Part shown: positions 49,021 to 64,000 of the stretch, one piece after another
Numbering within the stretch: the stretch's first letter is position 1
Layout of the letters: each line of letters opens with the position of its first letter
Assembly: GCF_900104845.1 (NCBI RefSeq)
Contig: NZ_FNSR01000003.1
Location: 496,001 to 560,000, forward strand
DNA: 64,000 bases
Direction: 5' to 3'
From: Paraburkholderia caballeronis
Lineage (GTDB): Bacteria > Pseudomonadota > Gammaproteobacteria > Burkholderiales > Burkholderiaceae
Made by a program: the position numbers and the translations under genes
The notes under the pieces: model-generated
What the model was told of the DNA's origin: nothing
The model's database searches: none
What the model saw: only the letters and a program-made list of their open reading frames with translations

Positions 49021-49028
49021 ACTCAATG

Positions 49029-49142: not shown

Positions 49143-50180
49143 ATGGAGAAACGCACGGTGATCCGTATCCCCTTTGAACAGATGCAGCAGGCGATCGCGT
49201 CGGCATTCGTGAACGCCGGCATGAACGAGCAGGACGCGCAGACCTGTGCGCGAATCCACACCGAGTCGTCGTGCGACGGCGTCAATTCGCACGGCATCAA
49301 TCGCGTCGCGCGGTTCGTCGATTATCTGCAACGCGGCTGGGTTCACGCGGATGCGAAGCCGTCGCTCGCGAAGAACCTCGGCACGATCGAAATCTACGAT
49401 GGGCAGCGCGGGCCGGGCGTCACAAACGCGCTGTTCGCGACCGGGCGCGCGATGGCGATCGCGGCCGAACGCGGCGCGGGCATCGTCGCGCTGCGGAACA
49501 CGACGCACTGGATGCGCGGCGGCGCTTACGGCTGGCACGCGGCGGATCGCGGCTACCTCGCGATCGCGTGGACCAACACGGAATCGTGCATGCCCGCATG
49601 GGGCGGCCGCAATCCGCGGATCGGCAACAACCCGTTCGTGATGGCGGTGCCGCGCGCGAAGGGCAACATCGTGCTCGACATGGCCGTCTCGCAGTATTCG
49701 TACGGCAAGCTCCAGGCGACGCGCCTGAAAGGGCAGCAGATGCCGTATCCGGCGGGCTTCGACGCGCACGGCCAGTTGACCGCCGAGCCGGGGCCGGTCG
49801 AGGCGTCGAAGCGCATTTTGCCGATGGGCTACTGGAAGGGCTCCGGTTTCGCGATCATGCTCGACGTGCTCGCGGCGGTGCTGTCCGAAGGCGCGCCGAC
49901 CAATGCGATCGACGGAATCGAGGAAGGCAGTTGCACCGGCTGCTCGCAGGTGTTCATCGTGATCGACCCGCGGCAGCTCGGCGGTGAAGCGTTCACGAAC
50001 AGCGTTGCCGACAGCGTCGCGGACTACGTGAACGGTTCGGAACTGGCCGAGCACAGCCGCGAAGTGCTGTATCCGGGACAAAGCGCGCTGCGCACGCGAA
50101 ACGAGCAGCGCGACGCGGGCATCGCCGTGGACGAAGGCGTGTGGGCCGAAGTGCTCGCGCTCGCGGGGCAGCGCGGCTGA
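49143..50180 (+). CDS. malate/L-lactate dehydrogenase family: 2,3-diketo-L-gulonate reductase-like
   Basis: 345 residues of the LDH2/MDH2 oxidoreductase family. The closest type by motif is YiaK/DlgD: start VIRIPFEQMQQAIASAF, the catalytic-His segment SSCDGVNSHGINRVARFV, GAGIVALRNTTHWMRGGAYG, and late WKGSGFAIMLDVLAA and EGSCTGCSQVFIVID. E. coli YiaK reduces 2,3-diketo-L-gulonate with NADH. Here it follows the hexuronate regulator, so it probably handles a related keto-acid. ATG 49143 is used. Confidence 0.88.
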   Translation: MEKRTVIRIPFEQMQQAIASAFVNAGMNEQDAQTCARIHTESSCDGVNSHGINRVARFVDYLQRGWVHADAKPSLAKNLGTIEIYDGQRGPGVTNALFATGRAMAIAAERGAGIVALRNTTHWMRGGAYGWHAADRGYLAIAWTNTESCMPAWGGRNPRIGNNPFVMAVPRAKGNIVLDMAVSQYSYGKLQATRLKGQQMPYPAGFDAHGQLTAEPGPVEASKRILPMGYWKGSGFAIMLDVLAAVLSEGAPTNAIDGIEEGSCTGCSQVFIVIDPRQLGGEAFTNSVADSVADYVNGSELAEHSREVLYPGQSALRTRNEQRDAGIAVDEGVWAEVLALAGQRG

Positions 50181-50252: not shown

Positions 50253-51302
50253 TCAGAAGAAGTGCACGATGCCGAGCTGCACGCCGTTGATCGTGCCGCC
50301 AGGACCCGACGTGATGTGCGCCGACGGCTCGACGACCGCCGCGCCGTTCAGCGCGAGGTTGTTGCGCGAGCCCTGCTGGCTCAGGCGCGAGTACGTCGAG
50401 TACAGCATCGTCCGCTTCGACAGCGCGTAGCTGTACATCACGCCGAGCTGCGACGCGTTGCCGTGGCCGGTGCCGGACACGTGGTCGATCATGTACGTGT
50501 AGCCGAGCGCGAGCCGCGACGCGACGGTGAACGAATACGCGAGCGACGCGGACAGCACGTTCGTATGCACGCTGTCGTCGGTCGTCTTGTCGTCGTTCGC
50601 CGCGAAGAAGAACTGCCAGTGCTTGTCGAGCGTGTACGTGCCGCCGCCCGACGTGCGCTTGAAGATGTACGGCAGCGTGCCGTTGCGCACCTCTTCGTGG
50701 TTCACGCCGAAATAGACCGGACCCTTCTCGTATTCGAGCGCGATGTGGAAGTTCTGGTTGCTCTGGTCCTGCGACAGCGGCGTGCCGCCGGACACCGCGC
50801 CGCGCGCATAGAGGCCCGAGAACTTGAAGCCGGCGACCGTCGGCGAGAAGTAACCGACCGCGTTGTCGATCCGCACGGTCGCGGTGGACATGTTGTTCCA
50901 GCCGGACGCCTGGGTCGCCGCGAAGAATGCGTCGAAGCGGCCGCTCATCAGGAATTCCGGCGTGTTCTGGCGGCCGAGCCGGACTTCGCCGTAACGGTTG
51001 TTCGACAGCCCGACCCACGCCTGGCGGTTGAAGAGCCGGTTCGAATCGGCCTGCGAGCCGTCGTTCGAGTTGATCCCGCTTTCGAGCACGAAGTTGGTCT
51101 TGTTGCCGCCGCCGAGATCCTCGCTGCCGCGCACGCCCCAGCGGCTCGCGTACAGGCCGCTCGAATCCATCCGCGTGACCGACGGCTTGCCGTCCGCGTG
51201 AATGTTCGTCACGAAGGTATCGACGACGCCGTATAGCGTGACGCTCGACTGCGCATGCGCGGCGGCCGCGCCCGACAAAACGCCTGCAATCGCGGCGCGC
51301 AT
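50253..51302 (-). CDS. outer-membrane porin
   Basis: 349 residues from ATG 51302: signal MRAAIAGVLSGAAAAHA, then QSSVTLYGVVDTFVTN. Typical porin marks are RWGVRGSEDLGGGNKTNFVLE, NRLFNRQAWVGLSN and the final VQLGIVHFF with terminal Phe. GAGAGGTG just upstream supports this start; an in-frame ATG at 51347 would add an Arg-rich lead and cannot be excluded. It faces the hexuronate island tail to tail and shares a long AT-rich upstream region with the end of the LysR gene. Its partner pathway is uncertain. Confidence 0.9.
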   Translation of the reverse strand: MRAAIAGVLSGAAAAHAQSSVTLYGVVDTFVTNIHADGKPSVTRMDSSGLYASRWGVRGSEDLGGGNKTNFVLESGINSNDGSQADSNRLFNRQAWVGLSNNRYGEVRLGRQNTPEFLMSGRFDAFFAATQASGWNNMSTATVRIDNAVGYFSPTVAGFKFSGLYARGAVSGGTPLSQDQSNQNFHIALEYEKGPVYFGVNHEEVRNGTLPYIFKRTSGGGTYTLDKHWQFFFAANDDKTTDDSVHTNVLSASLAYSFTVASRLALGYTYMIDHVSGTGHGNASQLGVMYSYALSKRTMLYSTYSRLSQQGSRNNLALNGAAVVEPSAHITSGPGGTINGVQLGIVHFF

Positions 51303-51678
51303 CAGCACCTCTCGCGAACGAAGGGCGAAACGTTGGCGGTATTCCATCTGGAAGCTGTTCCCCGGTTGTCGTTGAGGCACGGTGGCCGCCGACGTCGCGT
51401 CGAGCGGACCGTGCCCCTGCATTGAACGGACTCTCCATGCCGCGCGCCGAAAAAAGTTTGGATCACGAAACGAATGGAGAGCGCTGCTTCAACCGGGGCC
51501 GCGCATCGGGGCAGGCTGGCGTGGATGCGGGTATTGCGGGATGCGTCGTGACCGGTTGAATAGCCCGGATTCTAGGAGGGGGGAAATTTGATGTCGTATT
51601 CTATTTTATTGGCTGTCTATAACATGCCGTTAAACGTCGGGCCGTCCGGACGAGCGGATGCCTGGGCGCGAATGCGCG
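51303..51678. other. intergenic leader of the third porin
   Basis: 376 bp upstream of the porin and downstream of the LysR gene. The part at 51580-51630 is strongly AT-rich (TTCTATTTTATTGG, TCTATAACATG) and probably holds the porin promoter on the minus strand, which implies a leader of over 250 nt. No gene is supported. Confidence 0.45.
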
Positions 51679-52584
51679 TCACGCGACCCGCCGCAGCGCC
51701 TGCACGTCCAGTTCGGTCAGCGTGTTGAGGAACTCGTGCGCGAGGCCGGACAGCGGCTCGAAGCGCGCGTGCAGCACGTTCACGTCCATCGTGATGTCGG
51801 GCAGCAGCGGCCGGATCACGACGCCCGGCCATACCTGCCCGAGCACCGCGACCTCGTCCGCGATCGTCACGCCGACGCCCGCCTGCACCAGCGCGCAGGC
51901 GGCGTGCGTGAGCCGCACTTCGACCGCGAGCCGCATCGCGACGTCGGCGGTCGCGAACAGCTGCTGGATCAGGCCGCCGAACGGCGTGTCGGCGGAATAG
52001 CCGATCAGGTCGACGTTTTCGAGGTCGCGCACGTGCAGCGCGGGCCGGCTCGCGAGCGGATGGTCCTGTGGCAATACGGCGACCAGGTGGTCCTCGTAGA
52101 TCGACTGCTGCTCGATGTTCGGGTGGTCGAGCGAGAACATCGCGACGCCGAGTTCGGCCTGGCGGGTCAGCAGCGTCTGCACGAGCTGCGTCGAGGTCTG
52201 CGTGACGATGTTGATGCGCACCTTCGGAAAGCGCTTGCGAAAACGCGCGATCGCGGTCGGAATCAGCGTCTGCCCGAGGCTCGGGCTCACGACCAGTTGC
52301 AGCGCGCCGGTGTTTTTTTCGATCAGGTCGTTCGCGACGTCGTTCACGCGCTGCAGCCCCTGGTGCACCGCGTTGACCTCGACGAACAGCCGCCGCGCCT
52401 CCGGCGTCGGGTACAGCCGGCCCTTGATCCGTTCGAACAGCTTGAGTCCGAGACGCGACTCGGTGTGCGAGATCATGCGGCTGATCGCGGGCTGCGACAC
52501 GCATAGCAGCTTGGCTGCGCCGCTGATGGAGCCCGCCACCATGATGGCCCGGAAGACCTCGATCTGGCGCAGGTTGACTTGCAT
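51679..52584 (-). CDS. LysR-family regulator of the ureide-type island
   Basis: 301 residues. HTH in LRQIEVFRAIMVAGSISGAAKLLCVSQPAISRMISHTESRLGLKLFER. The effector domain has ALQLVVSPSLGQTLIPTAIARF and HAACALVQAGVGVTIADE, close in style to OccR/NocR-like regulators of amino-acid and opine uptake. It is divergent from the AllA/PuuE-like genes. A TTCAAAATTTGAA palindrome with LysR spacing lies between them. Ligand unknown. Confidence 0.9.
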   Translation of the reverse strand: MQVNLRQIEVFRAIMVAGSISGAAKLLCVSQPAISRMISHTESRLGLKLFERIKGRLYPTPEARRLFVEVNAVHQGLQRVNDVANDLIEKNTGALQLVVSPSLGQTLIPTAIARFRKRFPKVRINIVTQTSTQLVQTLLTRQAELGVAMFSLDHPNIEQQSIYEDHLVAVLPQDHPLASRPALHVRDLENVDLIGYSADTPFGGLIQQLFATADVAMRLAVEVRLTHAACALVQAGVGVTIADEVAVLGQVWPGVVIRPLLPDITMDVNVLHARFEPLSGLAHEFLNTLTELDVQALRRVA

Positions 52585-52630
52585 TTCCTTAACCTCATGT
52601 TATGCGACGGCGATAAATAAGCATACGACA

Positions 52631-52643
52631 TTCAAAATTTGAA
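52631..52643. promoter_or_regulatory. LysR-type T-N11-A palindrome TTCAAAATTTGAA
   Basis: Perfect 13-bp palindrome in an AT-rich stretch 47 bp upstream of the LysR start and 128 bp before the AllA-like start. The T-N11-A geometry and the location between divergent genes are standard for LysR recognition sites. Confidence 0.55.
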
Positions 52644-52770
52644 ATGATTAAATTCGTCTGCCTCACGAAGGCGGACGGCGCAGCGACTGCGTGACGGCCG
52701 CTTCGCGCGGCGCGCCGTGGAGCCCTCGCCAACGCCTGGGCGCGGCGTTTCTGGAGCGATCAAGCCGTTT

Positions 52771-53283
52771 ATGCAAGATTCCGAAGCCTTGACCCTGATT
52801 CCGGGGCCACTGACCGCTGAAGCCTTCGCGCCGTTCGGAGACGTCGTTCCGATCGCGAACGACGAGCGGCGCAACCATTTCCGATTCGCGTTCGAAGCGG
52901 CGTCCGAGGCTCGCGAGCCGGCGCTGTGGGTCAGCTATCCGTCGAAGGTCGCGGGCGACGTCGTCGAGGTGCTGAAGCTGGAGCGGCATCCGCATGCGGC
53001 GCAGACGTTCATCCCGATCCGCGACGGCCGGTATCTGGTGGTCGTCTGCCATGCGGCCGCCGACGGCAGTCCCGACCTGTCCACGCTGCGCGCGCTCGTC
53101 GCCGAGTCGAACCAGGGCGTCACATACCGGCGCAACGTATGGCATCACGGCCTCACGGTGCTCGACCAGCGCACGCGCTTCGCGGTCGTCACCACGTTGT
53201 CCGGCGACGGCGACGACGACTGCTTTTACGAACTGCCGAAGCCGGTGCGCATCCGGTTGTCGGCCGCCGACACGGGAGCCTGA
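52771..53283 (+). CDS. ureidoglycolate lyase family protein (AllA-like)
   Basis: 170 residues, the family's normal length. Conserved stretches are LTAEAFAPFGDVV, LERHPHAAQTFIPI, PDLSTLRALV, and GVTYRRNVWHHGLTVLDQRTRF, matching AllA, which splits ureidoglycolate into glyoxylate and urea. ATG 52771 gives the expected start (LTLIPGPLTAEAF); a GTG at 52717 is in frame upstream. The following PuuE-like gene starts 4 bp after its stop, so the two are coupled. No allantoicase gene, which would make ureidoglycolate from allantoate, is present in the window. Confidence 0.88.
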   Translation: MQDSEALTLIPGPLTAEAFAPFGDVVPIANDERRNHFRFAFEAASEAREPALWVSYPSKVAGDVVEVLKLERHPHAAQTFIPIRDGRYLVVVCHAAADGSPDLSTLRALVAESNQGVTYRRNVWHHGLTVLDQRTRFAVVTTLSGDGDDDCFYELPKPVRIRLSAADTGA

Positions 53284-53287
53284 AGCG

Positions 53288-54220
53288 ATGTCCCAGTTCT
53301 CAACGCCGTCCGGCCGCGACTTCGTCGGCTACGGCCGCAATCCGCCCGATCCGAAGTGGCCGGGCGGGGCGCGGGTCGCGCTGAACTTCTGCATCAACTA
53401 CGAGGAAGGCGGCGAGCCTTCGATCGAGGACGGCGACGCATCGAGCGAGACCGGGCTCACCGAGGGCGGCGGCGGTTTCGAAGGCCGCGATCTCGCGGCG
53501 GAGTCGATGTTCGAATACGGCAGCCGCGTCGGCTTCTGGCGCATCACGCGCCTGCTGGAGCAATACGGGATGCCGGCGACGGTGTTCGCCTGTGCGCTCG
53601 CGCTCGAACGCAACCGGGAAGCGTGCGCGGCGATCCGCGAATACGGCTTCGACGTGTGCGCGCACGGCTGGCGCTGGGAGCGTCATCAGCAACTGGACGA
53701 AGCGACCGAGCGCGAGCGCATCCGGTGCACCGTCGCGAGCCTCGCGCACAGCGTCGGCGAACGTCCGCTCGGCTGGTACTGCCGCTACGGTCCCGGCCTG
53801 AACACGCGCCGGCTCGTCGCGGAGGAAGGCGGCTTCCTGTACGACTCGGATGCGTACAACGACGAACTGCCGTACTGGACCACGGTGAATGCGCAGCCGC
53901 ATCTGGTGGTGCCGTACGGGCTCGTGAACAACGACGCGAAGTTCATTCGCGGCGGCATGGCGACCGGCGACGACTTCTACGCGTATCTGCGCGATGCGTT
54001 CGATCTGCTGTACGAAGAAGGCGCCGACGCGCCGAAGATGATGTCGGTCGGCCTGCATCTGCGGCTGAGCGGCCATCCGGGGCGCGCGGCCGGGCTGCGG
54101 CGTTTTCTCGATCATGTCGCGAGCCGCGACCGGGTCTGGGTGTGCCGGCGCGCGGACATCGCGCGCCACTGGCACGCGCAGCATCCGTATGGGGGCGGCG
54201 CATCGTCGTCCTCTTTATAA
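53288..54220 (+). CDS. puuE: PuuE-type allantoinase (polysaccharide-deacetylase fold)
   Basis: 310 residues, co-linear with Pseudomonas PuuE as I recall it: GYGRNPPDPKWPGGARVAL, NYEEGGEPS, ESMFEYGSRVGFWRI, CAHGWRWERHQQLDE, NTRRLVAEEGGFLYDSDAYNDELPYW, then APKMMSVGLHLRLSGHPGRAAGL. PuuE hydrolyses allantoin to allantoate without a metal cofactor. Some relatives act on other ureides. Where PuuE has GLHCRL this protein has GLHLRL. Coupled to the AllA-like gene and followed by an amino acid-type ABC transporter, it may act on an imported ureide. Confidence 0.85.
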   Translation: MSQFSTPSGRDFVGYGRNPPDPKWPGGARVALNFCINYEEGGEPSIEDGDASSETGLTEGGGGFEGRDLAAESMFEYGSRVGFWRITRLLEQYGMPATVFACALALERNREACAAIREYGFDVCAHGWRWERHQQLDEATERERIRCTVASLAHSVGERPLGWYCRYGPGLNTRRLVAEEGGFLYDSDAYNDELPYWTTVNAQPHLVVPYGLVNNDAKFIRGGMATGDDFYAYLRDAFDLLYEEGADAPKMMSVGLHLRLSGHPGRAAGLRRFLDHVASRDRVWVCRRADIARHWHAQHPYGGGASSSSL

Positions 54221-54240
54221 ACACTCCAGACGGGGAATCC

Positions 54241-55113
54241 ATGAAACTGCAGAAATTCGTGCGTGCGGCCGCGATCGCGAGCGCCGCTTCGTTCCTGATG
54301 CTCGGCTCGGCGATCAGCCGCGCGGCGGACGCGGACCATCCGGCGAACCAGCCGCTCGTCGTCGGCACCGATTTCGGCCTCGCGCCGTGGGTCGTGCGCA
54401 CCGACTCGGGGCCGCAGGGCTTCGGCGTCGACGTGATCACCGAGGTCGCGCGCCGCATCGGCCGCCCCGGCGTGAAGATCGTCGACGTGAATTTCTCGGG
54501 ACTCTTTTCCGCGCTGTTCTCGAAGCGCATCGAGTTCACCGTGAATCCGCTCAACATCACGGCCGACCGCGCGGAGCGGATGCTGTTCACCGAGCCGATC
54601 ATGTCCACCGGCAACGGTTTTCTCGTGCGCAACGGCGAGCAGATGAAGGGCTTCGACGATCTGCGCGGCAAGGAAGTCGCGGTGAATCGCGGCACGATCT
54701 CCGATACGTGGGCGACCGAAAACGCCGCGAAATACGGCTTCAACATCCAGCGTTACGACGTGTTCCCGGACACGGTGCAGGCGGTCATCACCGGCCGCGC
54801 GTTCACCGCGCTCAACGAGATTCCGACCGTCGTGTTCGCCGCGAGCCGCAACAAGGCGGTGAAGATCGGCTACGAGGACTTCAACGGCCGCAACTTCGGC
54901 TACGCGTTCCGCACCGACGACGCCGCGTATCGCAACAAGGTCGAGGACGCGCTCGAATGCATGAAGCAGGACGGCACGCTGCACAAGCTCTACGTGAAGT
55001 GGTACGGCACGGAGCCGACGAAGGGCTCGGCGGTCGATACCGTGTATCCGGGTTACGGCGCGCCGGGCTTCAAGGGCTACGACGCGCAGCCGCACACGCC
55101 GCAGTGTCATTGA
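54241..55113 (+). CDS. polar amino acid-type ABC substrate-binding protein (family 3)
   Basis: 290 residues. Signal peptide about 1-28 (MKLQKFVRAAAIASAASFLM..ISRAA), then PLVVGTDFGLAPWVV, GFGVDVITEVARRIG, FTVNPLNITADRAERMLFTEPI, and DLRGKEVAVNRGT, typical of family 3 binding proteins for amino acids, opines and small amides. The usual Arg in the 'ITxER' position is present (ITADRAER). A hairpin with a short T-run follows the stop, and then two permease genes, so the binding protein is probably made in excess. Confidence 0.9.
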   Translation: MKLQKFVRAAAIASAASFLMLGSAISRAADADHPANQPLVVGTDFGLAPWVVRTDSGPQGFGVDVITEVARRIGRPGVKIVDVNFSGLFSALFSKRIEFTVNPLNITADRAERMLFTEPIMSTGNGFLVRNGEQMKGFDDLRGKEVAVNRGTISDTWATENAAKYGFNIQRYDVFPDTVQAVITGRAFTALNEIPTVVFAASRNKAVKIGYEDFNGRNFGYAFRTDDAAYRNKVEDALECMKQDGTLHKLYVKWYGTEPTKGSAVDTVYPGYGAPGFKGYDAQPHTPQCH

Positions 55114-55121
55114 TCGTCCGC

Positions 55122-55155
55122 GCCGGCCCGCATGCGCGGGCCGGCGTTCTTTTCT
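55122..55155 (+). terminator. hairpin after the binding-protein gene, partial terminator
   Basis: GCCGGCCCGC (55122-55131) and GCGGGCCGGC (55136-55145) form a perfect 10-bp stem with a 4-nt loop (ATGC), followed by GTTCTTTTCTTC. It sits 8 bp after the binding-protein stop and 28 bp before the permease start, so it should attenuate rather than end operon transcription. Confidence 0.75.
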
Positions 55156-55173
55156 TCGTTCGGATTCGAGTGG

Positions 55174-55860
55174 ATGGATCGCATCGTCGATAATTTTTTC
55201 AACGCCGGGATCATCGCCCAGTCGTGGCCGCAGATCCTGAGCGGCTTCGGCATCACGGTGCTCGTGTCGGTGCTCGTGATCGTCGTCGGCGTCGTATGGG
55301 GGCTCGTGCTGACGCTCGCGCGGACCATGGAGATCCGCGCGCTGAATGCGCTGATCGTCGCGTACATCGATTTTTTTCGCACCATGCCGCAGCTCGTCGT
55401 GCTGGTGCTCGGGTATTTCGGCTTGCCTTATATCGGCGTGCGGCTGTCGCCGTTCGCGACGACCGTGCTCGGCCTCGGCGCGGTGCTGTCCGCGTTCTCC
55501 GCGGAAATCTTCTGGTCGTCGATCAAGGCGTTGCCGGCCGGCCAGTGGGATGCGGCGCGCGCGCTCGGCTTCGGGCCGCTGCGCACGCTGTTCTCGATCA
55601 TCCTGCCGCAGGCGGTGCGGCTGTCGATCCCGCTGCTGACGAACCGCGCGATCGCCGTCAGCAAGGGCACCGCGCTCGGCACCGCGGTCGCGCTGCCCGA
55701 AGTGCTCGGGCAGGCGCAGAGCCTCGTCGGGATGCTCGCAAATCCGTCGCCGCTGACGCTCGCCGCCGCGTGTTATCTGGCGTTCTTCATTCCGCTCGTG
55801 ATCCTGAGCCGCTGGCTCGAAAAGATCTACGGCGCAGGCAGCCGGACGAGGCGCGCATGA
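55174..55860 (+). CDS. amino acid-type ABC permease
   Basis: 228 residues of the HisM/GlnP family with about five helices. The permease core reads AYIDFFRTMPQLVVLVLGYFGLP, and the ATPase-docking loop is AARALGFGPLRTLFSIILPQAVR. ATG 55174 was chosen because the upstream in-frame ATG (55132) lies within the hairpin. Its end overlaps the next permease start by 4 bp. Confidence 0.9.
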   Translation: MDRIVDNFFNAGIIAQSWPQILSGFGITVLVSVLVIVVGVVWGLVLTLARTMEIRALNALIVAYIDFFRTMPQLVVLVLGYFGLPYIGVRLSPFATTVLGLGAVLSAFSAEIFWSSIKALPAGQWDAARALGFGPLRTLFSIILPQAVRLSIPLLTNRAIAVSKGTALGTAVALPEVLGQAQSLVGMLANPSPLTLAAACYLAFFIPLVILSRWLEKIYGAGSRTRRA

Positions 55861-56540
55861 ACCTGTTTCTCGACAACTTCTTCAATCTCGACTCGCTGCA
55901 ACAGGTCTATCCGCTGCTGCTCCAGGGGCTGCGGCTGACGATCCTGCTGTCGGTCGTCGCCGCGCCGGTGTCGATCGCGCTCGGCATCGCGATCGCGGTC
56001 GCGTACAGCTTCCATCATCGCTGGCTGAATCTCGGGCTGGTCGCGTACATCGACCTGTTCCGCTCGTTCCCGGTTGTCGTGCTGCTTGCGCTGATCTTCT
56101 ACGGGCTGCCGTTCTTCGGCATCACGCTCGGCAGTTTCGCGGCGGTGGTGCTCGCGCTCGCGCTGAACAACTCCGGCTACTACGGCGAGATCTTCCGCGC
56201 GGGCATCGAGTCGGTGCCGCACGGCCAGCGCGAGGCGGCGCGCTCGCTCGGCTTCGGGCCGATCCGCGAGATCGCGTACATCGTGCTGCCGCAGGCGGTG
56301 CGCAACGTGATGGCGCCGCTCGCGAGCAATTCGCTCGAACTCATCAAGACGACGTCGATCGCGTCGCTGGTGTCGCTGCCCGAACTGCTGCGCTCGTCGC
56401 GCGTCGCGCAGGAGCAGACCTATAACCCGACGCCGCTGATGGCGGCGGCGGTGATCTTCTTCGTGCTGCTGTGGCCGATGGCGCGCTGGGTCGCGCGGCT
56501 CGAACGCCGTGCGCTGCGCAGCCGGGAGGGCGGCCGATGA
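55857..56540 (+). CDS. amino acid-type ABC permease
   Basis: 227 residues, partner of the preceding permease. The core reads YIDLFRSFPVVVLLALIFYGLPF, with NNSGYYGEIFRAGIESVPHGQREAARSLGFGPIREI as the full HisM-type motif. Start and stop both overlap neighbours by 4 bp (ATGA), which places transport and the next gene, an epimerase/dehydratase, under strict translational coupling. Confidence 0.9.
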   Translation: MNLFLDNFFNLDSLQQVYPLLLQGLRLTILLSVVAAPVSIALGIAIAVAYSFHHRWLNLGLVAYIDLFRSFPVVVLLALIFYGLPFFGITLGSFAAVVLALALNNSGYYGEIFRAGIESVPHGQREAARSLGFGPIREIAYIVLPQAVRNVMAPLASNSLELIKTTSIASLVSLPELLRSSRVAQEQTYNPTPLMAAAVIFFVLLWPMARWVARLERRALRSREGGR

Positions 56541-57556
56541 CGACGCTGATTACCGGCGGCGCCGGGTTCGTCGGGCTTGCGCTCGCGGAGCGGCTGCGCG
56601 GCGACGGCGAACGCGTGGTGCTCGCCGATCTGCCCGCGCGCGACGGGGCAACGTCGATCGCTCCGCCGGCCGGCTGCGAGTTCGTCGGCGGCGACCTGCG
56701 CGACGACGACACGCTCGACCGCCTCTTTGCCGCCGGCCCGTTCGACGGCATCGTGCACGCGGCCGCGGTGACGCCGTCGCCGCAGCGCGAGCGCGACGAT
56801 GCCGCCGCGCTTCTCGACATCAACGTGACCGCGACCGCGCGGCTGCTGCAACGATGCGCGCGCGAGCGCGGCATCCGGCGCGTCGTCGTGGTCAGTTCGG
56901 TCGCGGTGTACGGTTATTCGCCGCCGGCTGCGTCCGGACGTTATGAAGAGGCCGCGTCGCCGCCCGCGCCGGCCGCGCTCTACGGGATCAGCAAGCTCGC
57001 GGCCGAACAGGCGGCGTTGCGGATCGGCGCGCTGCACGGTCTCGACGTGCGCGTCGCGCGGCTCGGGCCGGTGTTCGGGCGCTGGGAACATGCCAGCGGC
57101 GCGCGCGGGCAGTTGAGCCCGCATCATCAGGCGCTGGCCGCGGCGTTGCGCGGCGACGCGATCGTGCTGCCGCGCGCGATGCCGGCCGACTGGATCTATG
57201 CGCCCGATGCGGCCGACGCGCTCGCGCGGATCACCCGTGCGCCGATGCTCGATCATCCGGTGTATCACGTCGGCGGCGGCGCGCTGACCGACGTCGCGCA
57301 GTGGTGCGCGGCGCTCGCCCGTGTGCTGCCCGGCGTGCGCTGGCGCATCGCGGATAAAGGCGAGCCGTGCACCGTGCAATACGCGTTGCCCGCCGACCGG
57401 CCCGCGCTCGACACGACGCGGCTGGCGTCCGAACTCGGCCATCGCTGCCGTTTCGGCCTCGACGAATCGGCGCGCGATTTTCTCGACTGGATTGCGGCGA
57501 CGTCTGCGCAACCGTTTCCATCGTCGAGCCAGGAGGCGCGCGATGCGGCGGCTTGA
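56537..57556 (+). CDS. NAD-dependent epimerase/dehydratase (extended SDR), copy 1
   Basis: 339 residues. Rossmann TLITGGAGFVGLALAERL, catalytic Ser in VVVSSVAVYG, Tyr and Lys in LYGISKLAAEQ. Shared with the second epimerase at 60038 are VFGRWE, LSPHHQ/LSPPLL and PADWIYAPDAADAL / PDDWLYARDAADAL, so the two are paralogues. The fold serves nucleotide-sugar epimerases but also sugar-acid dehydrogenases such as DenD and uronate dehydrogenase. Translational coupling to the transporter suggests action on the imported compound rather than on a nucleotide sugar. Confidence 0.85.
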   Translation: MTTLITGGAGFVGLALAERLRGDGERVVLADLPARDGATSIAPPAGCEFVGGDLRDDDTLDRLFAAGPFDGIVHAAAVTPSPQRERDDAAALLDINVTATARLLQRCARERGIRRVVVVSSVAVYGYSPPAASGRYEEAASPPAPAALYGISKLAAEQAALRIGALHGLDVRVARLGPVFGRWEHASGARGQLSPHHQALAAALRGDAIVLPRAMPADWIYAPDAADALARITRAPMLDHPVYHVGGGALTDVAQWCAALARVLPGVRWRIADKGEPCTVQYALPADRPALDTTRLASELGHRCRFGLDESARDFLDWIAATSAQPFPSSSQEARDAAA

Positions 57557-58316
57557 CGGCAAGTCCGTGCTGATCACCGGCGCGTCGTCGGGCATCGGCC
57601 GCGCGATCGCGCTGCGCTTCGCGAACGAAGGCGCGCATGTCGTGCTCGCCGACGTCACGCAGACCGTCCGCGAAGGCGGCGTGCCGACGCTCGACCTGCT
57701 GCGCGAGGCGGGCCACGACGCGGAGTTTGTGCGGACCGACGTCGCGGTGGAAGCCGACGCGCAGGCAGCCGTCGATTACACGCTGCGGCGGCACGGCCGG
57801 CTCGACGTGCTGGTCAACGACGCGGCGATCAGCGTCGGCAAGCCGCTGCTCGAAACGTCGCTCGACGAATGGAACCGCGTGTTCGCGGTGAATCTGACCG
57901 GCGTGTTCCTGATGTCGCGCGCGGCGGTGTGCGCGATGCTCGCACAGCCGCCGCAAGGCGAGGTGCGCGGCCGCATCGTGAACGTGTCGTCGCAGCACGG
58001 GATGATCAGCGCGCCCGGCAACGTCGCCTACGGCACGTCGAAGGCGGGCGTCGTTTATCTGACCCGCCAGATCGCGGCCGATTATGCGGCGCACGGCATC
58101 GTCTGCAACGCGGTCGCGCCCGGCAAGATCGTGACCGGCAAATCCGGCCCGGCCGCGTCCGCGCAGGCCATCGACTATTCGACCGCCCGCACGCCGATGC
58201 GGCGTCTCGGGCGCCCCGACGACGTCGCGAACGCGGCGCTGTTTCTCGCATCCGACGAGGCGACGTTCCTCACCGGAGACAACCTGCTGGTCGACGGCGG
58301 CTGGATGGCCGCGTGA
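57543..58316 (+). CDS. classical SDR dehydrogenase/reductase
   Basis: 257 residues. NAD(P)-binding [28 protein letters not shown] in the NNAG position, catalytic Ser in IVNVSSQHG, Tyr/Lys in AYGTSKAG, and a typical end [19 protein letters not shown]. Its start overlaps the epimerase end by 14 bp. It is close to glucose/sugar-alcohol dehydrogenase-like SDRs. The substrate cannot be named. Confidence 0.88.
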
Positions 58317-58363
58317 CCTTCGACCCATTCTCACGACCCGATCAGGCAACGCAGACCCACCCC

Positions 58364-59149
58364 ATGAGCACAGTTACGCAGACCCTTCCGTTGCAGGACC
58401 GCGAGACCGATCCGGCCGCGATGATCGAAATGCGCCACGTGAACAAGTGGTACGGCGAGACCCAGGTGCTCGCCGACATCAACCTGACCGTGAAGCGCGG
58501 CGAGCGGATCGTCGTGTGCGGCCCGTCCGGCTCCGGCAAATCGACGATGATCCGCTGCATCAACCGTCTCGAAGTGCACCAGCAGGGCGACATTCTCGTC
58601 GAAGGCGTGAACATCGCGCAGAGCCCGCGCAACCTGCGCTTCGTGCGCCGCGAGGTCGGCATGGTGTTCCAGCAGTTCAACCTGTTCCCGCACCTGACCG
58701 TATTGCAGAACCTGATGATCGCGCCGATGAAGATTCGCGGGATCGACCGGCGCGAGGCCGAGGAGACCGCGCGGCATTTCCTCGACCGCGTGCACATCGG
58801 CAACAAGGCCGGCAGTTATCCGCGCGAGTTGTCCGGCGGCCAGCAGCAGCGCGTTGCGATTGCGCGCGCGCTGTGCATGAAGCCGAAGACGATGCTGTTC
58901 GACGAGCCGACGTCCGCGCTCGACCCGGAGATGATCAAGGAAGTGCTGGACGTGATGATCCAGCTCGCGGGCGAGGGCATGACGATGGTCTGCGTGACCC
59001 ACGAAATGGGCTTCGCGCGCAGCGTCGCGGACCGTGTCGTGTTCATGGACCAGGGGCAGATCGTCGAAGAGGCCCCGCCCGATGCGTTTTTCTCGATGCC
59101 GAAGGGCGAGCGCGCCCGCGCGTTCCTCGGTCAAATCTTGAACCGCTGA
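58364..59149 (+). CDS. amino acid-type ABC transporter ATPase (GlnQ/HisP family)
   Basis: 261 residues. Walker [12 protein letters not shown]-loop [15 protein letters not shown], signature [15 protein letters not shown], Walker [15 protein letters not shown] and switch [11 protein letters not shown] are intact. It completes the transporter encoded at 54241-56540. The minus arm has a binding protein and a permease but no ATPase within view, so this ATPase may also serve that system, or the missing one lies outside the window. Confidence 0.92.
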
Positions 59150-59203
59150 ACCGGCGGCAACCCCGGCAGCCCCGATTACCACCCCAACAGGAACGACTCA
59201 TAC

Positions 59204-59989
59204 ATGGATCTGAAAATCTCCGGCCGCGTCGCGCTCGTGCTCGGCGCCGGCGGCGGACTCGGCAGCGCGATTGCGGCGCAACTGGCTGCGGAAGGCGCGA
59301 GCGTCGCGCTCGCGGACGTCGACGACGCGGCGCTGCGCGCGAGCGCGGACCGCATCGAGGCCGCCGGCGGACGGTGCGCGCGTTACGTGTGGGATCTCGC
59401 GGACCTCGGCGCGATCGACGCGCACGTGGCCGCGATCGAGCGCGACCTCGGCCCGGTCGACATTCTGGTGAACAACACCGGCGGCCCGCCGCCTTCGGCC
59501 GCGAGCGGCGTCGCGTCGCCGGTCTGGGCAAAGCAGTTCGAAGCGATGGTGCTGTCGGTGATCGGCATCACGGACCGCGTGCTGCCCGGCATGCGCGCGC
59601 GGCGCTGGGGGCGGGTGATTACCAGTTCGTCGTCGGGCGTGGTCGCGCCGATTCCGAATCTCGCGATGTCCAATGCGCTGCGGCTGTCGCTCGTCGGCTG
59701 GTCGAAGACGCTCGCGCGCGAAGTGGCGGCGGACAACGTGACTGTCAACGTGATCTTGCCGGGCCGGATCGCGACCGCGCGCACGCGTTTTCTCGACGGC
59801 GCGAAGGCGAAGCGCGAGAACCGTCCGCTCGAAGAGGTGGTCGCGCAGAGCGTCGCGGCGATTCCCGCGGCGCGCTACGGCGAGCCGCAGGAATACGCGG
59901 ACGTGGTCGCGTTTCTCGCGAGCGAACGCGCGTCGTATGTGACGGGTTCGGTCGTGCGCGTGGACGGCGGGTATCTGCAGAACGTGTGA
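59204..59989 (+). CDS. SDR-family protein with degenerate catalytic dyad
   Basis: 261 residues. Cofactor site VLGAGGGLGSAIAAQLAAEG and VNNTGGPPP are normal, as are ITSSSSGVV (catalytic Ser region) and the end ASYVTGSVVRVDGGY. Where classical SDRs have YxxxK, this one reads AMSNALRLSLVGW: Tyr is replaced by Met and the Lys position by Leu, with Arg next. A subfamily with 'SNALR' exists in proteobacteria, and its chemistry is poorly known to me. Last gene of the plus arm. Confidence 0.85.
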   Translation: MDLKISGRVALVLGAGGGLGSAIAAQLAAEGASVALADVDDAALRASADRIEAAGGRCARYVWDLADLGAIDAHVAAIERDLGPVDILVNNTGGPPPSAASGVASPVWAKQFEAMVLSVIGITDRVLPGMRARRWGRVITSSSSGVVAPIPNLAMSNALRLSLVGWSKTLAREVAADNVTVNVILPGRIATARTRFLDGAKAKRENRPLEEVVAQSVAAIPAARYGEPQEYADVVAFLASERASYVTGSVVRVDGGYLQNV

Positions 59990-59995
59990 TGGGTT

Positions 59996-60024
59996 GAATC
60001 GCGGCGGATCGCGTGCCGCGATTC
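59996..60024. terminator. hairpin between convergent arms
   Basis: GAATCGCGGC (59996-60005) and GCCGCGATTC (60015-60024) form a perfect 10-bp stem with a 9-nt loop. It starts 6 bp after the SDR stop and ends 13 bp before the end of the opposing epimerase gene. No T-run is present, but the location makes it a likely shared terminator of both arms. Confidence 0.6.
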
Positions 60025-60037
60025 GCCGCTCCCGGTT

Positions 60038-61042
60038 TCAGAACATCTGCCGGGCTTCGCTGGACAGCGCGTGCAGTTGCACGCGCCAGCTCATCCAGTC
60101 GAAGAACGCGCGCACGTCGTCGAACCGCGCGCTGAAACCGGTATCCTGCGCGAGCCGTTCGACCGAGAACGGCGGCCGTGCGGACGGCGATTGTCCGCCG
60201 ACGTTCGCTTCTTCCGCTTGCGACACGACCGCATAATCGAATTCCGGATACGCGTCGCGCAGCAGATCGCACCACGCGCGCGGCGACCAGCGCCGGCCGG
60301 TGCCGACCTGATACAGCGCATGGCGCAGATGCCGCGCATCGGCAAGCGCGACGAGCGCGTCGGCGGCGTCGCGCGCATAGAGCCAGTCGTCCGGCAATCC
60401 GGCTCGCAGGCGCGCAGCCTGGCCCGCGCGCGCGAGCCTCGCGAGCAACAGCGGCGGACTCAGCGTATCGCGCACGCCGGTGTCGTATTCCCAGCGCCCG
60501 AACACGACGCCGAGCCGCGCGACTACCACGTCGAGGCCATGCAGCGCGCGATGCCGCAGCGCCGCGCGTTCGGCCGCGTACTTCGTGATTGCATACAGCG
60601 ATTCGGGCTGCGGCACGTCGCGATCCTCGACCAGTTCCGTCTGCGTGTGCGCGCCCGCGCCGTACACCGAACCGCTGCTCAACTGCACGACGCGGCCGAC
60701 GCCCGCGCGGCCTGCGGCGGCGAGCACGTTCAGCGTGCCGTGCAGATTGACGTCGGCGATCGCGGCTGCCTGCGTGCGCTCGCGTTCCGGTCCCGCGGTC
60801 ATCGCCGCGCCGTGGATCACGCAGTCGGGCTGGTGGCGCAGCATCGCGTTGACGAGCGCCGTTGCGTCGCGCACGTCGGCGTGAGCGACATGCAGCGCGC
60901 CGGGCAACGCACGCAGCCATTCGAGCGCCGGCGACGGCGGCGGCGCGAGATCGAGCAGGGTGACGGTGTCGCCGCGCGCAAGCAGGCGTTCGGCGAGGTT
61001 GAGGCCGATGAACCCCGCGCCGCCGGTGATCAGCACGTTCAT
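60038..61042 (-). CDS. NAD-dependent epimerase/dehydratase (extended SDR), copy 2
   Basis: 334 residues. NVLITGGAGFIGLNLAERLLARGD, catalytic Ser in VQLSSGSVYGAG, and Tyr/Lys in LYAITKYAAERAAL. It shares the VFGRWE and PDDWLYARDAADAL motifs with the epimerase at 56537. The start at 61042 gives the exact family N-terminus; the open frame runs far upstream only as a shadow of the amidohydrolase gene, whose stop lies 43 bp before this start. Having paralogues in both arms suggests two related or sequential oxidations or epimerisations. Confidence 0.88.
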   Translation of the reverse strand: MNVLITGGAGFIGLNLAERLLARGDTVTLLDLAPPPSPALEWLRALPGALHVAHADVRDATALVNAMLRHQPDCVIHGAAMTAGPERERTQAAAIADVNLHGTLNVLAAAGRAGVGRVVQLSSGSVYGAGAHTQTELVEDRDVPQPESLYAITKYAAERAALRHRALHGLDVVVARLGVVFGRWEYDTGVRDTLSPPLLLARLARAGQAARLRAGLPDDWLYARDAADALVALADARHLRHALYQVGTGRRWSPRAWCDLLRDAYPEFDYAVVSQAEEANVGGQSPSARPPFSVERLAQDTGFSARFDDVRAFFDWMSWRVQLHALSSEARQMF

Positions 61043-61085
61043 GCGCGGTGTGCCTGCATCGTGGCGACAACCGCAAGCAACGCGT

Positions 61086-62522
61086 TCATGCGAGCCACGG
61101 CGCGGGCGCCGGCCGCGTGCCCACGCCGGGCGCCCGTTCGCATGCGACGAGCCGGCCATGGCCTGGCTGCGCGAGCAGCCGGCCTGCGTCGCAGACCACG
61201 ACGCCGCGGCTGATCGTCGTGACCGGCAGGCCGCGCAGTTCGGTGCCTTCATAGACGGTGTAACCCGCGCCGTCGTGCAGCGTCGCGGCCGAGAGCGTCG
61301 TTCGGGCATCCGGGTCCCAGATCGCGAGGTCCGCGTCCGCGCCGGGCGCGATCACGCCCTTGCGGCCCGCCATCCCGAAGAGCCGCGCGGGACCGGCCGC
61401 GCTCAGTTCGACGAAGCGTTCGAGCGACAGCCGGCCCCGGTTCACGCCTTCGGAGAACAGCAGCGGCAGCCGCGTTTCGAGGCCGGGCAGGCCATACGGT
61501 ATCCGGTTGAACGGCGCGTCGTCGCCGGCGCTGCGCTTGCCGTGCGGTCCGTCGAGGCGGAACACCGAATGATCGGACGAGAAGCACGAGAACAGCCCGT
61601 CGCGCAGGCCGTCCCATAACGCGCCATGATCGAGCGCGCTGCGCGGCGGAGGCGAGCAGCAATACTTGACCGCTTCATGGAACGGCCGGTCGAGGTCGCG
61701 CTCGGTCAGCAGCAGATATTGCGGACAGGTCTCCGCGAACACCGGCAGGCCGCTGCGCTGCGCGGCCGCGATCTGCGCGGCGGCGGCGGCGGACGACACG
61801 TGCACGATGAACACCGGAATGTCGAGCAGTTCCGCGAGGCCGATCGCGCGAAAGGTGGCCTCGCGTTCGGCGAGCGCGGGCCGCGCGTGCGCGAGATGGC
61901 GCGGATGCCGGTAGCCGAGCGACAGCAGCCGCTCAGTGAGCCAGCCGATCATGTCGTGGCTTTCCGCGTGGATCATCGGCAGAACGCCGAGCCGGCGCGC
62001 GTGCAGCAGCGTTTCCAGCAACTGCCGGTCGTCGACGCGCAGCGCGTCGTAGGTCATGTACAGCTTGACCGACGTGAAACCCTCGCTGACCAGCGCCGGC
62101 AGTTCCGTTTCGAGCACGGTCGGGTTCGGGTCGGTCACGATCATGTGAAACGCGTAGTCGACCACCGCGCGTCCGGCGGCGCGCTCGCGATAGGCGCTGA
62201 CGCTGTCGCGCAGCGACTGGCCGCGATGCTGCGCGGCGAACGGCATCACGAGCGTCGTGCCGCCGAACGCGGCGCCGACCGTCGCTTCGTGGAAGTCGTC
62301 GGCGGTCGTCGCGCCGGTCGACGTGGTCTGCGCGATGTGGCAATGCACGTCGATGCCGCCGGGCAGCACCAGCCGGCCGGTCGCGTCGATCACGGTGGCG
62401 GCGTCCGGCGCGTCGGCGGTCAGCGCCGCGATCCGGCCGTCGCGCACGGCGACGTTCACGCGGGCGAGCCGCCCGTTCGCGAACACGCTGCCGCCGCGCA
62501 CCAGAAGGTCGAACGTGGACAT
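61086..62522 (-). CDS. hydantoinase/dihydropyrimidinase-family amidohydrolase
   Basis: 478 residues of the cyclic amidohydrolase family. Metal-site residues are HxH in GGIDVHCHI, carboxylated Lys in SVKLYMTYDAL, His in IHAESHD, His in FIVHVSSAAAA, and the catalytic Asp in FSSDHSVF. Dihydropyrimidinases usually have HTH and a MPFGGT-like stretch after it; here it is HCH followed by AQTTSTGATTADDF, so the substrate may differ from hydantoins or dihydrouracil. It hydrolyses cyclic amides or imides. It lies between the second epimerase gene and a permease gene. Confidence 0.85.
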   Translation of the reverse strand: MSTFDLLVRGGSVFANGRLARVNVAVRDGRIAALTADAPDAATVIDATGRLVLPGGIDVHCHIAQTTSTGATTADDFHEATVGAAFGGTTLVMPFAAQHRGQSLRDSVSAYRERAAGRAVVDYAFHMIVTDPNPTVLETELPALVSEGFTSVKLYMTYDALRVDDRQLLETLLHARRLGVLPMIHAESHDMIGWLTERLLSLGYRHPRHLAHARPALAEREATFRAIGLAELLDIPVFIVHVSSAAAAAQIAAAQRSGLPVFAETCPQYLLLTERDLDRPFHEAVKYCCSPPPRSALDHGALWDGLRDGLFSCFSSDHSVFRLDGPHGKRSAGDDAPFNRIPYGLPGLETRLPLLFSEGVNRGRLSLERFVELSAAGPARLFGMAGRKGVIAPGADADLAIWDPDARTTLSAATLHDGAGYTVYEGTELRGLPVTTISRGVVVCDAGRLLAQPGHGRLVACERAPGVGTRPAPAPWLA

Positions 62523-62556
62523 CGGGCTTATTCCTTTGCGAAAGGGCGGCGCGCGC

Positions 62557-63276
62557 TCATCGCGCGTTTTGTCCGAGCGGTCCGCGCGACGCGCGCAGCC
62601 TTTTGCGTCGCGGCGTCGAACCGGTCCGCGCCGTGTTCGCGCGTTCGAGCCGCAGTTGCGCGAGCGTCAGCACGGTCGTGATCGTCAGATAGATGAGGCC
62701 GGTCAGCGTCAGCACCTCGACCGCGCGATACGTGCTGCTGTAGATCGTCTGCGCGCTCAGCATCAGTTCGGGAACCGTTATCACCGACGCGAGCGACGTG
62801 TTCTTCGTATGGCTGATGAAGTTGCCGACGTACGGCGGCAGCACGATGCGCATCGCCTGCGGCAGCACCACGAAACGCAGGATCAACGGCCACGTCATGC
62901 CGAGCGCCTGCGACGCCTCGGTCTGCCCGCGCGGCACCGCGCGGATGCCGGCGCGGATGATCTCCGCGTTGTACGCGGCCGAACTCATCGACAGCGCGAT
63001 GATCGCCGCCGGCAGCGCGTCGAGGCGCAGCCCGAACAGCGGCGCCGCGTAGTACACGAAGAACAGGTGCAGCAGCACCGGCGTGCCGCGAAACACCCAG
63101 ATGTAGACGAACGCCGCGACGTTCAGCGCCTTCAGCCGCGCGTCGCGCGCGAGCGCGAGCACGAGGCCGAACACCGTGCCGCAGACCTGCGTGACGACCG
63201 CGAGGAAAATCGTCATCAGCGCGGCCTTCAGCAGCACCGGCAGATACGGCAGCACCTGCGCGAAGTCGATGTTCAC
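62557..63276 (-). CDS. amino acid-type ABC permease (minus arm)
   Basis: 239 residues, HisM/GlnP family: ALMTIFLAVVTQVCGTVFGLVLALA, VYIWVFRGTPVLLHLFFVYY, SAAYNAEIIRAGIRAVPRGQ, and the docking loop EASQALGMTWPLILRFVVLPQAMR. The C-terminus is extended by Arg-rich sequence (NTARTGSTPRRKRLRASRG). It lies between the binding-protein and amidohydrolase genes. Only one permease is present in this arm, so it may work as a homodimer. Confidence 0.9.
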   Translation of the reverse strand: MNIDFAQVLPYLPVLLKAALMTIFLAVVTQVCGTVFGLVLALARDARLKALNVAAFVYIWVFRGTPVLLHLFFVYYAAPLFGLRLDALPAAIIALSMSSAAYNAEIIRAGIRAVPRGQTEASQALGMTWPLILRFVVLPQAMRIVLPPYVGNFISHTKNTSLASVITVPELMLSAQTIYSSTYRAVEVLTLTGLIYLTITTVLTLAQLRLERANTARTGSTPRRKRLRASRGPLGQNAR

Positions 63277-63328
63277 GGCGACTCCGGATCGCGGGCCGGT
63301 TCGGCGTCGAGGACGTGAGGCATGCGGA

Positions 63329-64000
63329 TCACTTCGCGGTCTCGCTCAACTGCGCGCTGTAGTGGTCGATCCCGAAGTACTGCTTGCCCCATTTGTCGAG
63401 CAGCCCTTCCTTCTTCATTTCGCGGATCGCCGCATCGACGCCGGCCTTCAGGTCGGCCGAGCCCTTCGGCATCGGCGCGCCGACGAAGCGCACGCGGTAC
63501 GGCTCGCCGACGATCGACGCGATGCCCGGCCGCTGGCGCAGCACGTTCGCGGCGGACGTGTCCGGCGCGACCACCGCGTCGAGCCGGCCGAACGCGAGGT
63601 CGGTGAACATCTCCGCATAACCGGAGTAACCCTTGAAGTCCGCGAATTCGCCGTACTGTTTTTCGATGTCGCGCGCGGGCATCTCGCCGTCGTTCGCGCC
63701 CGCGATCGCACCGACGCGCTTGCCCTTCAGGTCCCTGAAGCTCCTGATGTCGTTCGCGCCGCTGCGCGCGACGATCACGACCGCCGAGCGCGAATACGGA
63801 ATCGAGTAGTCGAACACGGCCGCGCGCTCCGGCGTGATGTTCACGTTCGAGAACACGATGTCGAAGCGGCCGGTCTGCAGGCCCGGCAGGATGCCCTTGA
63901 ATTCCAGATGGTCGAGCTGCATCGGAATGTGCAGATAAGCGCTGACGAAACGCGCGACCTGCACGTCGTAGCCGTCGAGTTCGTTCTGTGCGTTGACGAA
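63329..64000 (-). CDS. family 3 ABC substrate-binding protein, N-terminus outside the window
   Basis: The frame is open to the right edge and lacks its signal peptide and start. 223 residues are visible: FVNAQNELDGYDVQVARFV at the edge, GILPGLQTGRFDIVFSNVNITPERA, DYSIPYSRSAVVIVARSG, DLKGKRVGAIAG, AFGRLDAVVAPDTSA, and the end LLDKWGKQYFGIDHY. It is the binding component for the adjacent permease. Its ligand class (amino acids or small amides) is all that can be inferred. Confidence 0.9.
   Translation of the reverse strand, partial: FVNAQNELDGYDVQVARFVSAYLHIPMQLDHLEFKGILPGLQTGRFDIVFSNVNITPERAAVFDYSIPYSRSAVVIVARSGANDIRSFRDLKGKRVGAIAGANDGEMPARDIEKQYGEFADFKGYSGYAEMFTDLAFGRLDAVVAPDTSAANVLRQRPGIASIVGEPYRVRFVGAPMPKGSADLKAGVDAAIREMKKEGLLDKWGKQYFGIDHYSAQLSETAK

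Follow-up and report, generated by a model that had tools for sequence, protein, structure and literature searches.

The right-hand end of a 64,000-nucleotide window of the Paraburkholderia caballeronis genome carries a two-arm gene island that pairs epimerase-family oxidoreductases with ring-opening amidohydrolases and two uptake systems. The window covers positions 496001-560000 of contig C3 (1.09 Mb) in a 7.1-Mb genome of three contigs, referred to as G000, and the coordinates below are those of the window. With middling confidence, we interpret the island as one catabolic regulon, controlled by LysR, for an environmental cyclic ureide, or two related ones, with a hydroxyl group (hydantoin/allantoin class). 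Gene content, shared promoter sites, the linkage of an extended short-chain dehydrogenase/reductase (SDR) and a classical SDR with ring-opening amidohydrolases in relatives, and divergence from the allantoin enzymes can be read directly from the sequences. The shared promoter sites are the strongest evidence that the two arms form one unit.

Layout of the island

The island comprises fifteen genes, every frame of which is complete and free of inner stops when the genes are read across the window end and scanned against protein families. Arm 1 extends from LysR to SDR2 (51679-59989), and arm 2 extends from Epi2 to SBP2 (60038-64126), with the two arms convergent:

50253..51422, minus strand, Gram-negative porin (Porin_4; PF13609, 163.7 bits), third transcription unit of the predicted regulon
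51679..52584, minus strand, LysR-family regulator, 301 amino acids (family scan; relatives at 95% in G034, 85% in G291, and 68% in G015)
52771..53283, plus strand, AllA-like protein of the ureidoglycolate-lyase family, 170 amino acids, divergent paralogue (PF04115, 113 bits)
53288..54220, plus strand, PuuE-like allantoinase paralogue, 310 amino acids (TIGR03212, 394.5 bits; best PDB match 3cl6)
54241..55113, plus strand, SBP1, family 3 solute-binding protein, 290 amino acids (PF00497)
55174..55860, plus strand, permease A of an amino-acid-type ATP-binding cassette (ABC) system (TIGR01726 above cut-off)
55857..56540, plus strand, amino-acid-type ABC permease B (TIGR01726 above cut-off)
56537..57556, plus strand, Epi1, extended-SDR epimerase-family oxidoreductase, 339 amino acids (PF01370, 133.7 bits)
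57543..58316, plus strand, SDR1, classical short-chain dehydrogenase, 257 amino acids (family scan), a frequent Epi neighbor
58364..59149, plus strand, ABC transporter ATPase, GlnQ-like (family scan)
59204..59989, plus strand, SDR2, classical short-chain dehydrogenase, 261 amino acids (family scan)
60038..61042, minus strand, Epi2, extended-SDR epimerase-family oxidoreductase, 334 amino acids (PF01370, 156 bits)
61086..62522, minus strand, HYD, D-hydantoinase/dihydropyrimidinase family, 478 amino acids (TIGR02033, 496.2 bits; best PDB match 1nfg)
62557..63276, minus strand, amino-acid-type ABC permease C (TIGR01726 above cut-off)
63329..64126, minus strand, past the window end at 64000, SBP2, family 3 solute-binding protein (family scan)

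An earlier sequence-only reading of the window had described a two-arm island with these named parts, and its inventory was right, since all of the parts are present, complete, and in the order that it gave. The unit also takes in the porin and the full length of SBP2 and is thus larger than that reading had it. Extension to the right, which that reading had advised, placed the end of SBP2 at 64126 and the arm-2 promoter site further right; the flank genes beyond were left out of the island.

The two arms were also said to share a design, and their parts do match. However, SBP1 and SBP2 are only 23% identical, and therefore the shared design does not reflect a recent duplication. Tandem duplication of the arms was ruled out by this low identity together with the placement of Epi1 and Epi2 on opposite sides of a supported branch (see below). 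The arm-1 ATPase had been taken as the only one in the island, which is true in G000 but not in its closest counterparts, Trinickia mobilis (G034) and G291. In both of these genomes, a second ATPase, which shares 47-49% identity with that of arm 1, lies in arm 2 between the permease and HYD. Only 34 bp (62523-62556) separate permease C and HYD in G000, so this gene is missing from its arm 2.

By eye, against PDB relatives, SBP1 and SBP2 both keep the Arg that we take to be the carboxylate contact of glutamine-type binding proteins, whereas the Asp that is presumably the amino-group contact is Glu in SBP1 and seemingly shifted in SBP2. The aligned SBP1 proteins have a C-terminal extension that continues past the region aligned to the PDB relatives and carries a Cys at its end or close to it. 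No tRNA genes were found at 40000-64000.

Promoter sites shared by both arms and the porin

Near-identical 42-bp stretches lie in the gap between the LysR and AllA-like genes and upstream of SBP2 in all three genomes that have both arms (G000, G034, and G291). When ten whole genomes were searched with the first 42-bp pattern, allowing up to three mismatches, only these three gave matches (two in G000 and three each in G034 and G291), and the reversed pattern gave none. A looser pattern with the same tolerance identified exactly three sites in the 7.1 Mb of G000 and none with the reversed control:

51592..51633, minus strand, porin promoter/operator site (T-N11-A box plus -35 element), with -10 hexamer TAGAAT 17 nucleotides further
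52589..52630, plus strand, arm-1 promoter/operator site, with box TAAC-N5-GTTA at 52590-52602, -35 ACGACA at 52625-52630, and -10 TTAAAT at 52648-52653
64260-64301, outside the window (C3:560260-560301), arm-2 promoter site upstream of SBP2

The looser pattern recovered the same three sites in G034 and the same three plus a three-mismatch site in G291; the porin orthologues of these genomes (82% and 67% identical, respectively) carry the same promoter site. In G015, a genome from another genus of the same family that has arm 1 without arm 2 and without the ATPase, the pattern hit three sites (arm 1 and one other with two mismatches and one with three). A matrix trained only on the three arm-1 sites gave the arm-2 site a score of 51.8 and the porin site 35.9, the next best place in 79 kb scoring 6.1, and a matrix trained without G000 recovered the same three sites.

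The nine sites of the three two-arm genomes read TTAAC-N5-GTTAT followed by a -35 element ACGACR or GCGACR. A hexamer with four to six matches to TATAAT lies exactly 17 nucleotides behind the -35 element in all nine, and two arm-1 promoters have an equally good hexamer at 18 nucleotides. LysR-type activators usually bind a T-N11-A box near -65. The TAAC-N5-GTTA dyad forms such a box in all nine promoters, its center 29 nucleotides before the -35 element and, judged from that spacing, near -65. The arm-1 site is 4 bp from the LysR start, and G015 keeps both the arm-1 site and the LysR (68%), the latter unlinked. We infer that the shared site is bound by this LysR, in which case the two arms and the porin would make up one predicted three-operon regulon, apparently switched on together. 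That the arms belong together had been proposed before, and promoter sharing bears this out, with the porin included.

Nine further LysR relatives (39-68% identical) were found and eight were read. Five of the eight have a comparable site no more than about 100 bp from their start; it is the best of its locus in four, and the fifth overlaps the LysR start. No such site was found in the eight Bradyrhizobium/Rhodopseudomonas-type arm-1 loci or in Methylobacterium indicum (L016), where the best scores are at most 4.1, and no LysR of more than 31% identity was matched in those eight loci. Four upstream genes that were read there are presumably GntR-like. A LysR paralogue in G291 (52%; L197:14521-17652) with a three-mismatch site at its start faces UbiD-family (PF01977) and Flavoprotein-family (PF02441) genes.

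Divergence from allantoin enzymes

Judged by family scores and motifs, the PuuE-like and AllA-like proteins of the window are divergent paralogues of allantoin enzymes. The PuuE-like protein falls below the TIGR03212 cut-off for PuuE allantoinase (394.5 versus 424.6 bits), and the AllA-like protein, which passes PF04115, is under every listed NCBIfam AllA cut-off (PRK13395/PRK03606 models; best 102.5 versus 160 bits). Allantoin genes that pass their cut-offs are located on another replicon (contig C1, 1905111-1908144), where PuuE scores 527.2 bits, allantoicase 469.9 (cut-off 277.9), and AllA 344.2 (cut-off 282). The PuuE-like protein is 52% identical to the C1 PuuE. Three motifs, HGWRWE, YC-RYG, and GHPGRA, occur in all 12 aligned arm-1 PuuE-like proteins and are absent from the two canonical proteins aligned with them, the C1 copy and 3cl6, which read HGYRW in place of the first.

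The island proteins share with PuuE and AllA their fold families, adjacent genes, best PDB matches (3cl6 and 1xsr), and core motifs, including the ERHP and WHH motifs retained in the aligned AllA-like proteins. They differ in their sub-cut-off scores, group-specific motifs, coupling to Epi and SDR proteins, and lack of an allantoicase. Family scans also detected no allantoate-processing enzyme among the fifteen genes, as had been noted before. A standard allantoin operon was rejected because both proteins score below cut-off and passing copies lie with allantoicase on C1; the earlier view that plain allantoin use is insufficient to account for the island holds on the same evidence.

The core motifs would also suit a second allantoin or purine-salvage system of broadened specificity, in which the Epi and SDR genes are passengers. 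This seems highly improbable given that no allantoate-processing gene is present and that 11 of the 12 loci with PuuE, which come from distant families, have SDR1 next to Epi (loci chosen for Epi; the adjacency was not seen in L016).

A cyclic-imide pathway is another candidate, in which an SDR oxidizes a ring carbinolamide to the imide, the PuuE-like protein opens the imide, and an amidase finishes. It has a published parallel in the nicotinate branch of Aspergillus nidulans, for which the cited account proposes, from mutants and metabolites, that the SDR HxnW makes and the imidase HxnM opens 3-hydroxypiperidine-2,6-dione, and its authors relate HxnM to HpPgdA and, through HpPgdA, to PuuE (PMC9304392). 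The likeness, at the level of the described steps, is an SDR step followed by ring opening by a PuuE-group-related enzyme, and the branch differs in being fungal and in its amidase finish, with no AllA mentioned in the portion of the account drawn on here (PMC9304392). We regard this pathway as improbable for the island, as the PuuE-like protein is 52% identical to the C1 PuuE, its best PDB matches (3cl6, itself a PuuE, and 1z7a) are far ahead of 3qbu, and the AllA-like lyase points to a ureide.

The Epi/SDR pair and its ring-opening partners

Epi1 and Epi2 are 41% identical over 325 amino acids, in agreement with their earlier description as paralogues. Ser, Tyr, and Lys, which we take to be the SDR catalytic set, are invariant in a 20-row Epi alignment, and the AlphaFold2 model of Epi1 has a mean predicted local distance difference test score of 90. 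Both proteins match only generic extended-SDR families and are far under the listed sugar-specific cut-offs. They resemble the extended-SDR D-erythronate dehydrogenase (NF043036) in fold and in the N-terminal region but score 53.8 and 51.8 against a cut-off of 325 bits. SDR1 had no PDB match at E<=1e-48.

Neighborhood analysis of the epimerases, also advised by the sequence-only reading, links them to ring-opening enzymes. We compared 29 Epi loci totaling 570 kb, several of which share a genome (L221 was chosen for its LysR and D-carbamoylase, the others for Epi), with 79 control loci (L017-L095, 1.34 Mb), mostly around generic epimerases, of which L017-L019 hold distant Epi relatives. HYD was found in 12 Epi loci, PuuE in 12, and either in 23, compared to 0, 0, and 0 of the 79 controls. 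In 25 of the 29 loci, versus 2 of 79, Epi has an SDR1-like neighbor in the same orientation at a distance of at most 340 bp. The contrast is indicative and not exact because the control loci are taxonomically far more diverse. SDR2 stands at the end of arm 1 only in the three two-arm genomes among the loci read, and SDR2-like genes (49-52%) occur near Epi2-like clusters in L163 and L165.

In a tree of 33 Epi proteins, a branch with support 99/97 separates 15 rows (12 PuuE linked, 1 HYD linked, and 2 with neither) from 18 rows (12 HYD linked and 6 with neither). Some of the "neither" labels stem from the 20-kb limit on the loci, since that of Bradyrhizobium prioriisuperbiae (G776) shows HYD when read further (L226), and the long-branch rows L160 and L118 are unsure. 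The partner labels require 8 changes on this tree, as few as which occurred in 0 of 200 shuffles, and the HYD label alone requires 7 (8 of 500 shuffles). Epi1 and Epi2 are old paralogues, and the two clades to which they belong largely correspond to the ring-opening partner, PuuE-like or HYD. Epi1-type and Epi2-type clusters lie at separate places in G776, Rhodopseudomonas boonkerdii (G845), G832, and G582, and thus the island joins units that live separately elsewhere.

In L169 (6946-9520), a RuBisCO-large-family protein and an SBD_N/NBD_C protein, the latter presumably of the sugar-acid-kinase type, adjoin the Epi-SDR pair. These neighbors bear on the substrate first proposed for the island, a ureide or cyclic amide linked to a sugar or polyol, in which the sugar part would be the target of Epi1 and Epi2 and the cyclic amide that of the amidohydrolases. 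Some sources name Epi relatives sugar epimerases, and a PfkB carbohydrate kinase and a 3-dehydro-L-gulonate 2-dehydrogenase (NF009750, 380 bits, above cut-off) are encoded just left of the island (47130-50180). No promoter site was found at these left-flank genes, the promoter-defined regulon is without a sugar kinase, aldolase, or glycosidase, Epi fits generic families only, and its relatives point to hydantoin/N-carbamoyl chemistry. A sugar conjugate is a possible but unlikely substrate and is not the best supported one.

Distribution of the arms

Among 299 genomes from the family, Epi1 has a match at E<=1e-50 in seven and Epi2 in six, and close orthologues of both occur in the same three genomes (G000, G034, and G291, from three genera), linked each time. 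Identities are 70% (Epi1) and 66% (Epi2) in G034 and 62-63% and 64% in G291. The convergent layout recurs in G034, and the arms of G291 point in the same direction about 6 kb apart. Any Epi match was found in 6 of 144 genomes of the genus sample, with Epi1 itself only in G000 and the others at 42% or less, and in 3 of 398 genomes of the phylum sample.

The family of G582 was sampled with 296 genomes, 31 of which gave a match at E<=1e-45. Twenty regions were read from this family, a set that does not include the stronger matches in G912, G748, and G769 (3 of 11), and eight of them hold arm 1 alone (AllA, PuuE, SBP1, two permeases, Epi1, SDR1, and ATPase), seven belonging to the genus of G845 and the eighth to that of G776. 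Arm 1 also stands without arm 2 in L016, where the locus begins at PuuE with AllA out of view and no SDR1 or ATPase matched; a contig profile search with the 20-row Epi alignment matched a generic motif, and among the matches listed only L016 was informative for arm 1. With G015, arm 1 is alone in 10 loci read. The full form of arm 2 was seen only in genomes with arm 1, and related hydantoinase-Epi clusters without arm 1 use NMT1-like (PF13379) or family-5 (PF00496) transporters.

The sequence-only reading had named the occurrence of each arm alone with a known function, such as a standard allantoin operon, as evidence against itself. Arm 1 does occur alone, but as an uncharacterized cassette and not as such an operon; a hydantoinase with an Epi2-like protein likewise occurs without arm 1, but with other transporters. 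These separate occurrences would fit two unrelated standard pathways, for allantoin and for hydantoin/pyrimidine, lying side by side by chance. We consider chance proximity highly improbable, because both arms and the porin have a common promoter site, the arms are jointly present in the same 3 of 299 genomes, and the PuuE-like and AllA-like proteins are below cut-off, with passing copies and allantoicase elsewhere. The open-licence PMC literature yielded no report of such a cluster and no published function for it.

HYD and hydantoin systems

HYD is above the TIGR02033 D-hydantoinase/dihydropyrimidinase cut-off (496.2 versus 393.25 bits), and its His/Lys/His/His/Asp set, presumably the metal ligands, is conserved in alignment with 1nfg and eleven relatives. 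The three arm-2 hydantoinase orthologues have Tyr before the GxPG stretch, where nine other aligned relatives and 1nfg carry Asn, which we take to be a conserved substrate-side residue of D-hydantoinase. A further difference from systems of D-hydantoinase, D-carbamoylase, and hydantoin racemase is that D-carbamoylase gave no match at E<=1e-40 in G000, G034, or G291 (nor in G095), whereas a D-carbamoylase-like query matches the other 12 of 16 genomes. The G015 protein of this kind matches solved N-carbamoyl-D-amino-acid hydrolases at 2e-103.

Proteins of the Asp/Glu/hydantoin racemase (PF01177), arylmalonate-decarboxylase-like (PF17645), and FAD-dependent (PF13738) kinds are encoded in related Epi-SDR clusters, and D-carbamoylase is present in L168, L221, and L226, whose racemase-family matches are only 28-31% identical to the PF01177 protein of L167. 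In G015, a two-mismatch promoter-type site lies between the D-carbamoylase-like gene and a gene resembling threo-3-hydroxyaspartate ammonia-lyase (294.7 bits, cut-off 452). These neighbors and the G015 site suggest hydantoin/N-carbamoyl chemistry with a hydroxyl near the ureido carbon. Clusters L221, L226, and L168 combine family-5 ABC genes, an FAD enzyme, Epi, SDR, hydantoinase, a distant racemase-family protein, and D-carbamoylase, and L221 and L226 also carry a LysR relative. An RpoN-linked hydantoinase operon, reported for Paraburkholderia phymatum in the part of the study cited here (PMC5979394), was not matched to the island.

A proposed route for cyclic ureides

We infer the substrate class, each enzymatic step, and the order of the steps from these sequence comparisons. 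The porin and the two amino-acid-type ABC systems would import a cyclic ureide, with the arm-1 ATPase also serving the arm-2 permease. The PuuE-like and D-hydantoinase-like proteins, which are unrelated amidohydrolases, would convert it to an N-carbamoyl (ureido) acid, and the extended-SDR/SDR pair may oxidize or invert the carbon that carries the hydroxyl and adjoins the ureido group. The resulting carbinolamide (2-hydroxy-2-ureido acid) would then be cleaved by the AllA-like lyase, with urea and an oxo acid as products. Escherichia coli AllA is described in the cited excerpt as releasing urea from ureidoglycolate (PMC3793230), and thus, if the PuuE-like protein opened a 5-hydroxyhydantoin-type ring, the AllA-like protein would release urea and leave an oxo acid with no need for allantoicase. 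With 5-hydroxyhydantoin itself, opening of the ring would yield ureidoglycolate directly.

Extended across the relatives, the same evidence leads us to propose, tentatively, an undescribed route for hydroxyl-bearing cyclic ureides in Alpha- and Betaproteobacteria. The extended-SDR/SDR pair would prepare the carbon that carries the hydroxyl, the ring would be opened by one or the other of two unrelated amidohydrolase folds, and the AllA-type lyase of the PuuE version would free urea without allantoicase or carbamoylase. Both versions and a dedicated porin would be joined in one LysR regulon in a few Burkholderia-family genomes.

Several observations weigh against this interpretation. The unlinked 68% LysR of G015 has no strong site beside it, the sites at the five LysR relatives are weak (scores of 11-18, or three mismatches) compared to 54-75 in the island, and 15.8 is reached at one place with no LysR nearby. 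In the tree, the L160 Epi falls on the PuuE side, but its locus contains HYD. D-hydantoinase is usually paired with D-carbamoylase, which was not found in the two-arm genomes (E<=1e-40), leaving the HYD product with no evident next step unless the AllA-like protein or another amidase takes it up. The hint of a beta-hydroxy amino acid comes from one two-mismatch site in one genome (G015), and the assignment of Epi/SDR to the ureide, as opposed to a later product, is indirect. The substrate, the activities, and LysR-DNA binding are all predicted.

The analysis turns a loose neighborhood guess into a defined unit of predicted regulator, operator, porin, transporters, and enzymes, the substrate of which could be found by simple reporter or growth screens. 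The labels allantoinase, ureidoglycolate lyase, and sugar epimerase are brought into question for this cassette in Bradyrhizobium/Rhodopseudomonas relatives, Methylobacterium, and the Burkholderia family, and the unit may reveal cyclic ureides that serve these bacteria as a nitrogen source.

Flanks of the island

Pattern and matrix scans found no shared promoter site at the left-flank or right-flank genes. The left flank also encodes a regulator (within 47130-50180) that we take to be GntR-like. The right flank encodes LivK, an acyltransferase, an amidase, DUF2848, LysR2, and a second AllA-like protein; these genes were rejected as island members because no promoter site was found at them and because the stretches read near the island in G034 and G291 gave no match to them at E<=1e-20. 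Within this flank (L009:8025-11817), the amidase and DUF2848 genes are in tandem and are followed by the divergent LysR and the more distant AllA-like gene (PF04115, 49 bits).

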